Origin: Radiobacillus kanasensis
Lineage (GTDB): Bacteria; Bacillota; Bacilli; Bacillales; Amphibacillaceae
Direction of reading: 5' to 3'
Assembly: GCF_021049245.1 (NCBI RefSeq)
Contig: NZ_CP088020.1
Location: 812,001-876,000, forward strand
DNA: 64,000 nucleotides
Below, in pieces: positions 26,759 through 60,089 of the stretch; positions within the stretch are counted from its first letter, which is position 1, and every line of letters starts with the position of its first letter. Made by a program: the position numbers and the translations under genes. Under the pieces are notes generated by a model. The model was not told where the DNA came from. It saw nothing but the letters and a program-made list of their open reading frames with translations, and made no database searches.

Positions 26759-27064
26759 ATGCGAGAGAATATATTAAAAGATTTAAAAACTATAATTTTT
26801 GATGTTCTAAAAGAAGATAATGTGAAAGTTTACCTCTTTGGTTCTTGGGCTCGTCAGGAAGAAAAAAACAGCTCTGATATCGATGTTGCTATAGAATCAC
26901 ATTGACAGCTCCCCATATCAAAATGGACAGAATTACTTGAAAGGGTGGAAGAATCCACTATTCCATATAAAGTTGAGATTGTTAACATGGACGATGCAAG
27001 TATTAAATTGAAAGAAAATGTGAGGAAGGAGGGCGTTGAATGGAAAGATTGCAACAAAGAATAA
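26759..27064 (-). other. Strand note for the damaged mntA locus
   Basis: No minus-strand coding sequence is supported here. The real feature is the plus-strand mntA pseudogene covering the same coordinates. Confidence 0.3.
26759..27064 (+). pseudogene. mntA: MntA-type nucleotidyltransferase antitoxin with internal TGA stop
   Basis: ATG 26759 has AGGAAGAGGG upstream. It opens a minimal nucleotidyltransferase with the motif LFGSWARQEEKNSSDIDVAI, giving the GS and DxD catalytic pattern (Gly28-Ser29, Asp40 and Asp42). A TGA at 26903-26905 (codon 49) interrupts the frame. The same frame then continues without loss for another 52 codons (PISKWTELLERVEESTIPYK, then VEIVNMDDASIKL) to a TAA at 27062. 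That is exactly where a normal MntA ends, overlapping hepT by 25 nt. A single point mutation, for example CGA or TGG to TGA, explains it. The product would be truncated just after the active site unless the TGA is read through. Confidence 0.85.
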
Positions 27065-27432
27065 ATTCAGCTGAAAAGGCATTATCTTCCTTTGCCGAAC
27101 TTGTGGATCTGAAAGAACCAAGTTCAGTGGAACGTGACGCTTTAATTAAACGATTTAAATTCTCATTTGAAGCATGCTGGAAAGCGGCTAAACAATACTT
27201 ATACGACATAGAGGGAATAGATGTTGCCTCACCTAAGGGTGTAATGAGAAGTTTAAGAGAAAATTCTATTTTGAATGAAGATGAAGCGATCAAGGGAATT
27301 GGAATGGTAGATGATCGGAATTTGACTGTTCACGCCTACAATAAGGAAGTTGCAGTAAAGATCCAAGCTAACTTGAAGGAATATTATCAATTGTTAGTTT
27401 CTATAATAGAAAGAATGAAGTCAAGGGCTTAG
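27040..27432 (+). CDS. hepT: HepT-type HEPN toxin (HI0074-like), apparently intact
   Basis: This 130-residue all-helical HEPN protein is of the nucleotidyltransferase-substrate-binding (HI0074/HepT) type. The RNase and AMPylation motif R-x4-H-x-Y reads RNLTVHAY near residues 93-100. Other family features are FKFSFEACWKAAKQYL and ASPKGVMRSLRE. GGAGG lies 7 nt before ATG 27040. In characterised HepT/MntA pairs HepT is a ribonuclease toxin, and MntA neutralises it by AMPylating the tyrosine of this motif. Here the partner mntA carries a stop codon, so the toxin should be uncontrolled, inactive, or neutralised in trans. Confidence 0.87.
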   Translation: MERLQQRINSAEKALSSFAELVDLKEPSSVERDALIKRFKFSFEACWKAAKQYLYDIEGIDVASPKGVMRSLRENSILNEDEAIKGIGMVDDRNLTVHAYNKEVAVKIQANLKEYYQLLVSIIERMKSRA

Positions 27433-57903: not shown

Positions 57904-58245
57904 ATGTCAAGCACATCAAAACAAAAATACGGTATTCCTGAACGGTTTTTAAACGAATTTATACACTATTGTTCCAATAATGCAAACATCGAAAAAGTCC
58001 TCTTGTTTGGCTCAAGAGCTCGTGGCGATTTTCGATTTAATTCCGATATTGATTTAGCTTTCTATACTACTAATATTAATCACAGTGAACAAAACATAAT
58101 GGAATATATGGTTCGCGAAATATCCACTCATTTAAAAGTAGATATTGTATTTATGGATCGACTATCGAAAGAAGAATTAATTAAGAAAATAAAACGGGAT
58201 GGGGTGACTTTATATGAACAAGGAACGGCTTTACGAAAGGCTTGA
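57904..58245 (+). CDS. mntA: MntA-type nucleotidyltransferase antitoxin, intact
   Basis: This 113-residue minimal nucleotidyltransferase has the catalytic motif VLLFGSRARGDFRFNSDIDL (Gly-Ser and Asp-x-Asp) and a third acidic residue in KVDIVFMD. GGAGG precedes ATG 57904. It overlaps the downstream hepT start by 32 nt, the normal arrangement. In MntA/HepT systems this enzyme transfers AMP groups to the toxin tyrosine and inactivates it. Here its partner toxin gene is split by a TnpB element, so this antitoxin is without its cognate toxin. It could act on the HepT at 27040, but that is speculation. Confidence 0.9.
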   Translation: MSSTSKQKYGIPERFLNEFIHYCSNNANIEKVLLFGSRARGDFRFNSDIDLAFYTTNINHSEQNIMEYMVREISTHLKVDIVFMDRLSKEELIKKIKRDGVTLYEQGTALRKA

Positions 58246-58565
58246 AGACTATAAAAAGGCAAGCTCTAGATTAAATGAGGCAACTTTACTAGAAGTGGAA
58301 GATGATATTATTGTGGATGGTGTCATTCAACGTTTTGAATTCACCTTTGAGTTAAGCTGGAAATTGATGAAAGCATTCCTTGAATTCGATGGAATAACTG
58401 AAATAAGAAGTCCAAGGGGAGCCATTCGTGAGGCCTTTTCATATGGACTCGCCAAGGAGACCCCAATCTAAATCTACGATTTAGTTGCGGGAGGAATTGG
58501 CGCTTTCACCTCTTTGAAAACACTCGTTCGTATTATATACTATTAATAATAGGAGGTGTAAAAAG

Positions 58566-59690
58566 ATGCCCGGAAAAACCATTACGATCACGGCAAAAAT
58601 AAAAATCTTACCAACTGAAAAAGAGAAAGAACTTCTCCTCGACACGATTCGTGCAGTGAGAGAAGCGTTGAACTATGCCTCCAGCGAAGCTTTCCATAAG
58701 AAAATTTTCTCGAATATCCAGCTACACAAACATACGTATCATTCTATGAGAAGTAAGTTCGGTCTCCGTTCTCAAATGGCTAATAGCGTGAACAAAACCG
58801 TTTGTGCCAAGTACAAATCAATGAAATCAAATGGCGTTACGAATACGAAGGCTATGTTTAAGAAGCCGGAGTATGATTTAGTGTGGAATCGGGATTATTC
58901 TCTCAAAAAAGCAGCATTCTCCGTAAACACATTGAAAGGAAGAATCTCTGTGCCCTTCGAAACGAAGGGAATGGAACATTTTTTCGACGGAGAATGGAAA
59001 TTTGGTACGGCTAAACTGGTCACGAAAAAGGGCAAATTCTTTTTACACATCCCGATGACAAAAGCGTTCGAAGCAAGTGAAAAGATAGACAACATTGTCG
59101 GAATTGATCTAGGTATCAATTTCGTAGCAACCGTTTATGATCAAAATGGAAAAACGACATTCTTTAGTGGCAAGCAAATTAAACAAAAGCGTGGCCACTA
59201 TAAAAGGTTACGCAAGCAGCTTCAACAGAAACAAACAGCCTCAGCAAGAAGAAGACTATCAAAAATTGGTCAACGAGAAAACCGTTGGATGACAGATGTA
59301 AACCACTGCATCACCAAGGCACTCGTTAGTCAATATGGTCCGAATACATTGTTTGTTTTAGAAGATCTTTCTGGCGTAAGAACAGCAACCGAAAAGGTTC
59401 GTAAAAAGAATCGATACGTATCCGTATCCTGGTCTTTTGGCCAGTTTAGTAACTTCATAGAATACAAGTCTTTGATGAACCAATCGGGGGTTCTGTTTGT
59501 CGATCCAGCCTATACGTCTCAGACTTGTCCGAAATGCAGTCATCGCGATAAAACAAACCGCCATAAAAAGATCCACACCTTCTGTTGTAAAAGGTGCGAA
59601 TATCGTTCTAATGATGATCGCGTTGCTGCGATGAATCTCTATCATAAGGGAAGCCAGTACCTTAGAGGATCTACCCAGCAAGCTGGATAG
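58566..59690 (+). CDS. tnpB: RNA-guided endonuclease TnpB
   Basis: This 374-residue TnpB is compact and apparently intact. The RuvC-like residues are present: Asp in NIVGIDLGINF, Glu in LFVLEDLSGVR and Asp in SNDDRVAAMNL. The zinc finger TCPKCSHRD...CCKRC sits between RuvC II and III. N-terminal KIKILPTEKEKELLLDTIRA fits the wedge/REC part. AGGAGGTG lies upstream of ATG 58566. TnpB cleaves target DNA next to a short transposon-adjacent motif, guided by an omega RNA made from the element's right end. Without tnpA the element needs a transposase supplied in trans. Confidence 0.93.
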   Translation: MPGKTITITAKIKILPTEKEKELLLDTIRAVREALNYASSEAFHKKIFSNIQLHKHTYHSMRSKFGLRSQMANSVNKTVCAKYKSMKSNGVTNTKAMFKKPEYDLVWNRDYSLKKAAFSVNTLKGRISVPFETKGMEHFFDGEWKFGTAKLVTKKGKFFLHIPMTKAFEASEKIDNIVGIDLGINFVATVYDQNGKTTFFSGKQIKQKRGHYKRLRKQLQQKQTASARRRLSKIGQRENRWMTDVNHCITKALVSQYGPNTLFVLEDLSGVRTATEKVRKKNRYVSVSWSFGQFSNFIEYKSLMNQSGVLFVDPAYTSQTCPKCSHRDKTNRHKKIHTFCCKRCEYRSNDDRVAAMNLYHKGSQYLRGSTQQAG

Positions 59691-59834
59691 ATAGGGTATT
59701 TGTCAATATGCCCACGATGTGACACCACGCTGCAGCAGTTTGGTAGCGAAAAGGGATAGGAGCTCGAAGAGCGTTGGTACTATCGGGTAGTCACAAGCTC
59801 CATCAAAATCTATGATTTAGTTGGAGTAATTGAC
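59590..59834 (+). ncRNA. Predicted omega RNA (right end of the TnpB element)
   Basis: In TnpB elements the guide RNA scaffold overlaps the end of tnpB and runs to the right end; the guide is the flanking DNA. Here the scaffold would cover the last part of tnpB, the structured sequence after the stop codon and the terminal hairpin at 59806. The guide would start at 59835 (ATGGACTCATAAATG, which is hepT sequence). I infer this from position; 5' end and folding are not verified. Confidence 0.6.
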
Positions 59835-60089
59835 ATGGACTCATAAATGATGGAAAGCAATGGATTGATATGCTAATCGACCGAAATAAAACTTCACATA
59901 TTTATGAAGAGGCAGAAGCAAGATTAATTTATGAAAAAATCACTAAAACCTATAATAAATTGCTGTTAGATCTTTCTGAAGTAATGGGTGAAAAGATAGG
60001 GAATATAGTTAAAACGGAATAGCTAAACGTGTACCCATAGCTTATTTTCTAAATATGATGACAGGCGAGATAAAAAGATTGGTTAACAA

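Follow-up and report, generated by a model that had tools for sequence, protein, structure and literature searches.

Among described systems, those closest to the locus reported here are the class I HepT/MntA (type VII) toxin-antitoxin modules. In the excerpted text of a published survey, these have an upstream minimal nucleotidyltransferase (MNT) with a GSX10DXD motif, a partner with an RX4HXY motif and an overlap between the two genes, and PF08780/PF01909 pairs are counted among them (PMC7641770). For a HEPN-MNT pair from Legionella, RNase activity and an MNT that AMPylates are reported, again in excerpt (PMC11586414). The other ingredient of our locus, a TnpB element, has its described counterpart in ISDra2 and other IS200/IS605 elements, for which the excerpted source gives RuvC and zinc ribbon motifs in TnpB, subterminal hairpins, a fixed 5-nt motif at the left end and insertion without target duplication (PMC8612924). 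Judged by title and abstract start, none of the papers listed for the subject in an open-access library reports a toxin-antitoxin module split by TnpB, and the same library gave nothing related to TTCAT in connection with TnpB.

The locus lies in a window of 64,000 nucleotides from the genome of Radiobacillus kanasensis, and all features given by window position are on the + strand. Near 58 kb, we found an open reading frame for an MntA-like MNT of 113 aa (57904..58245), which matches PF18765 (E 3.8e-18) and carries GSX10DXD at 58009-58053, GSRARGDFRFNSDID; the gene is intact, as the earlier note had described it. Against the curated NCBIfam model MntA_antitoxin (NF047752) it scores 50.2 bits, under the cut-off of 60. 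Three PDB entries named Cmr1-MntA (9z7q, 9z7v and 9z7x) also match this MNT (E 8e-8), a hint of some connection between MntA-like proteins and type III CRISPR complexes.

The partner gene begins at 58214, inside the end of the MNT gene, and is interrupted after 58442. Its N-terminal part (58214..58442) matches the HI0074/NTase_sub_bind family (HEPN, HepT-like), with 81.5 bits to TIGR01987 (cut-off 55.8) and 79.5 bits to PF08780 (cut-off 31.8), where it covers positions 2-79 (E 2.8e-22). The C-terminal part (59835..60022) covers PF08780 positions 86-122 (E 4.8e-7) and taken alone falls under both cut-offs (30.3 bits for PF08780, 27.2 bits for TIGR01987). Because the two parts match consecutive PF08780 positions, we conclude that the insertion has split a single gene; a model of 135 positions built from relatives places the pieces at 1-82 and 78-134. 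The earlier note had claimed that two halves of hepT flank a 1.39-kb TnpB element and rejoin in frame to 138 residues with RNKTSHIY, and this holds: 229 nt and 188 nt add up to 417 nt, or 138 codons and a stop, by arithmetic on the two separate pieces, and RNKTSHIY is encoded at 59882-59905. The RX4HXY motif is thus present, but the element cuts it off from the N-terminal part, making this a broken member of class I. The first in-frame start codon of the C-terminal part is at 59870, with an in-frame TGA just upstream of it. Neither piece matches the curated HepT_toxin model (NF047751), so the module differs from HepT/MntA both in its split partner and in reaching the HI0074 model rather than the curated MntA and HepT models; judged from these profile matches, the partner family is HI0074 (TIGR01987) and not the narrow HepT_toxin model. 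Proteins of solved structure in the same HEPN family include HI0074 (1jog), TTHA0048 (1wty) and TTHA0636 (1wwp), and the Legionella HEPN protein (8xdj; pair 8xdj/8xeh) matches both partners found in the window; unlike the 58-kb partner, all of these genes are whole. Promoter-like sites between 57660 and 60120 numbered 8, with 7.1 expected from shuffles, and so showed no excess.

The interrupting sequence is a TnpB-only element of the IS200/IS605 type, 1,392 bp long (58443..59834), whose ends we defined by comparing the flanks of three genomic copies. The two further copies (C1:3663453 and C1:3855781) are 97% identical over 1,388 bp, with 40 and 42 mismatches. The tnpB gene (58566..59690, 374 aa) scores 214 bits against NF040570 (cut-off 100) and encodes a zinc ribbon (CPKC/CKRC) as well as GIDLG, LEDLSG and NDDR, which we take to be the RuvC positions from alignment to solved relatives. 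The frame is uninterrupted in each of the three genomic copies, between which dN/dS is 0.22, 0.25 and 0.39, and we consider this TnpB intact and probably active. DNA hairpins fold at both ends of the element, the left subterminal one with its core at 58468..58484 (fold of 58447-58500, z -2.78). The right end (59690..59834) is predicted to encode the scaffold of an omega/reRNA; it ends in TTGAC and includes a hairpin at 59797-59827, and none of 200 shuffles gave an RNA fold as stable (z -2.74). Searched against Rfam with a limit of E 1, positions 58300-60000 gave no match. The host DNA directly right of the element (59835..59850) is the predicted 16-nt guide region, by inference from the excerpted account of ISDra2 (PMC8612924). 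Directly left of the element is TTCAT (58438..58442), the target motif or TAM. In all six copies that we looked at (three in this genome, one 69% identical copy in the family genome G149, and one each on Pontibacillus and Alicyclobacillus plasmids), TTCAT, a stretch of 8 nt and a left end that contains AAGG follow one another with the same spacing, and the right end closes with TTGAC. These features resemble ISDra2 as excerpted, including the lack of a target duplication in the five other copies, while the 58-kb element differs in having TTCAT instead of TTGAT, one 8-bp flanking repeat, a right-end RNA not in Rfam and no tnpA (PMC8612924).

The genome encodes three Y1 transposases. One of them, which contains two internal stops, lies beside a right end that shares 30 bp with the 58-kb element; another, at 3619837, is open, with no similar element end found nearby; and a further one is at 3754989. 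Relatives of this TnpB at E 1e-120 were present in 2 of 159 family genomes, namely R. kanasensis, with its three copies, and G149. A plasmid search returned 25 records, each 60-80% identical to the element and none covering 80% of it, and a search of viral contigs with the left end of the element returned nothing. At C1:892.8 kb (L164:3311-3345), a 35-bp stretch is 89% identical to the right end of the element, and the 6 kb around it contain no TnpB match; this could be a solo end or a small derived element. We rejected the idea that the partner gene is a preferred target of the element across species, as in 11 relatives of the 58-kb type the site never reads TTCAT. Pairing of the 16-nt guide with these relatives would leave 3-7 mismatches, and together with the missing TTCAT this means that cutting of the 11 would not be expected.

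The explanation that we favor, and hold to be very probable, is that two unrelated lesions have struck two distinct MNT/HEPN modules, both of class I and HI0074-type. The lesion at 58 kb would be the insertion of a TnpB-only element, probably moved by a TnpA acting in trans, 3' of TTCAT in the HEPN gene, parting the N-terminal helices from RX4HXY and leaving the MNT intact; with the helices and the motif so parted, no toxic RNase would be expected. By analogy with ISDra2 as excerpted (PMC8612924), TnpB and its right-end RNA, with a guide running from 59835 on, would then cut, after TTCAT, those copies of the site that are free of the element, and such cutting would favor keeping the inserted state. 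The MNT at 27 kb, which belongs to a different subfamily, would have been ended independently by a single nonsense codon. The 58-kb locus is, on this explanation, an ordinary broken toxin-antitoxin module with an intact TnpB element, and the case shows how a mobile element with a guide RNA can bring the loss of a toxin-like gene to fixation and leave the antitoxin in place.

The left end of the 58-kb element carries a small anomaly. After TTCAT, both sister copies read CTAAACTC, and the 58-kb copy reads ATGGACTC (58443..58450), the same as 59835-59842 right of the element. The first four of these bases are ATGG where both sister copies have CTAA, and ATGG are the host bases right of the insertion; they sit between the TAM and the 4-bp identity ACTC. 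Five of the six copies lack a target-site duplication, and of the 8-bp repeat that flanks the 58-kb copy, 4 bp (ACTC) are explained by the left end of the sister copies. The remaining four, changed bases match the target 4/4, while the copies overall differ by about 3%. The natural reading of the sequence is a patch templated by the target. It may be a fossil of TnpB-guided re-installation, in which an element-free allele would have been cut, its left end trimmed to the ACTC microhomology, and the break then repaired from an element-bearing copy; we regard this as improbable, and the same patch would result if a heteroduplex formed at the original insertion or if DNA free of the element was exchanged in later. 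If true, the "copy" step, by which the toxin gene is kept broken, would have left a footprint readable in sequence. A target-templated patch at the left end offers a small, testable signature for TnpB-guided repair.

The second module of the window, near 27 kb, has the opposite lesion. Its MNT frame (26759..26905) is ended by one in-frame TGA (26903-26905), after which the remaining frame is still MNT-like, and this orphans an intact HI0074-type partner of 130 aa (27040..27432) that retains RX4HXY as RNLTVHAY at 27316-27339 and scores 31.0 bits against NF047751, under the cut-off of 60. In the only other genome of the genus that was compared (G001), the 27-kb-type module is whole and the 58-kb module is absent. 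Compared with the MNT of that genome, the piece before the TGA is 87% identical and the piece after it 80%, and the TGA is the only lesion seen, both of which would fit a sequencing error or a read-through codon in a module that is in fact whole; we think this unlikely.

Across the whole genome, the earlier note is wrong in counting a single unpaired antitoxin and a single unpaired toxin. Four HI0074-type modules are present, one intact and three broken: an intact one with the partner gene first at 455 kb, the 27-kb and 58-kb window loci at 839 and 870 kb, and one at 911 kb (L011:1471-2247), where the partner is split over two frames and the MNT is open, making it a second antitoxin-only locus. 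An MNT also stands beside a DUF86-type HepT at 522, 3644 and 3779 kb, in each case free of internal stops, and a HepT-like match at 2618 kb has no MNT match beside it. A scan of genome contigs with MntA found two distant loci. The 911-kb module adjoins what appears by eye to be an IS3-like transposase pair.

Could the two broken modules of the window nonetheless complement each other? The earlier note had suggested, as one of two options, that they may; the MNT at 57904 would then AMPylate the orphan HepT-like protein at 27040, letting each module lose one partner. There is sequence kinship to build on, as the two MNTs are 57% identical over 23 aa in the GSX10DXD region and the partners 37% identical over 70 aa, and cross-neutralisation has a reported precedent in MazEF (PMC10893535, in excerpt). 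Against this, a search of the genome with MntA(57904) at E 1e-3 misses the 27-kb MNT, and the best matches among structural entries are two Thermus proteins, TTHA0048 for the 58-kb N-terminal part (2.4e-16) and TTHA0636 for the protein at 27040 (9.6e-32), which suggests that the split between the two types is old.

We reasoned from trees of the partners and of the MNTs. Of 68 pairs, 7 were duplicates by partner sequence, leaving 61 distinct modules in which both genes were present; L126 was kept out of the trees for its short MNT match, and L134 and L138 were kept in, yet counted as damaged below. Distances between partners and between MNTs had a mirror correlation of 0.93, with a maximum of 0.19 in 2,000 permutations. 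In both trees, the 58-kb type (12 rows) and the 27-kb type (35 rows) lie on separate sides of one branch, with SH-aLRT support of 100 in the partner tree and 99 in the MNT tree by a quick method, in trees that have long branches (partners) or few columns (MNTs) and into which the broken R. kanasensis genes were entered as pieces. No swap between the two types occurred among the 61 modules. These comparisons argue for faithful inheritance of HI0074-type modules as pairs, and such inheritance makes sharing of an antitoxin between the 58-kb and 27-kb subfamilies unlikely.

Damage to these modules is common. We examined 50 loci of the 27-kb type, 22 from a family search and 28 from an order search, and found 18 damaged (7 in the partner only, 6 in the MNT only, and 5 with neither gene whole); both genes were whole in the other 32, a count that includes L118, whose frame runs on to about 270 aa. 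Several 27-kb-type fragments without a locus were left unclassified (G124, G082, G073, the second matches of G023 and of G013, and the second and third matches of G246). One-sided loss is thus routine for these mobile, often redundant modules, and since such losses are common, so are lesions of both opposite kinds. Of the two options in the earlier note, the other one, that both modules are decaying, fits best. We also rejected cross-neutralisation as an explanation that is needed, because the loss of a toxin requires no rescue. Two loci (L071:1459-2220 and L072:1435-2220) carry the MNT and the HI0074 partner as a single fused and open frame of about 250-260 aa, and more single frames of 240-277 aa from the order search may be fusions of this kind.

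Six genomes (G000, G153, G061, G408, G216 and G284) encode an orphan, that is, a whole 27-kb-type partner with no whole MNT; the G284 locus (L126) is counted here since its MNT frame stops before GSX10DXD. The best support for cross-neutralisation comes from these genomes: a 58-kb-type MNT co-occurs with three of the six orphans (G000, G153, G061) and with 2 of 32 paired modules (one-sided Fisher p 0.021). Without the discovery genome, the counts become 2/5 versus 2/32 (p 0.080), and within the family, again without it, 2/2 versus 2/14 (p 0.05). All of these counts are small, post hoc and ignore kinship, and they assume that two of the searches behind them sampled one and the same set of 397 genomes. 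At E 1e-12, no 58-kb-type MNT was found in the other three orphan genomes (G408, G216 and G284), and the motif histidine is gone from two of the six orphans (G061 and G216). In view also of the separate clades and the absence of swaps, we judge it very improbable that the MNT at 57904 neutralises the orphan at 27040 and so let each module lose a partner.

The orphan may instead be tolerated since it is itself weakened or silent, independently of any other antitoxin, a reading that is compatible with two unrelated lesions and that we rate as having nearly even chances. At 52 positions conserved in 90% or more of the paired relatives, the orphans depart 6, 10, 9, 3, 14 and 5 times, and the median for paired proteins is 1.5 (p 0.0007, leave-one-out); the difference persists relative to variable positions (p 0.0004) and without the R. 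kanasensis genome (p 0.002), and the lost histidines of G061 and G216 point the same way. On the other side, HepT(27040) keeps its RX4HXY, the paired protein of the same-genus genome G001 departs at 7 positions, so that the count may reflect the rate of the lineage, and the motif is altered in three of the paired proteins as well, once at Arg, once at His and once at Tyr. Relaxed constraint in orphans is hence a tendency, not proof, and the partner at 27040 has probably weakened, fallen silent or begun to be lost. In G408, where apparently only a C-terminal stub of the MNT is left, a gene that by eye looks like Fic/Doc lies directly before the orphan HI0074 partner (L130:847-1620).
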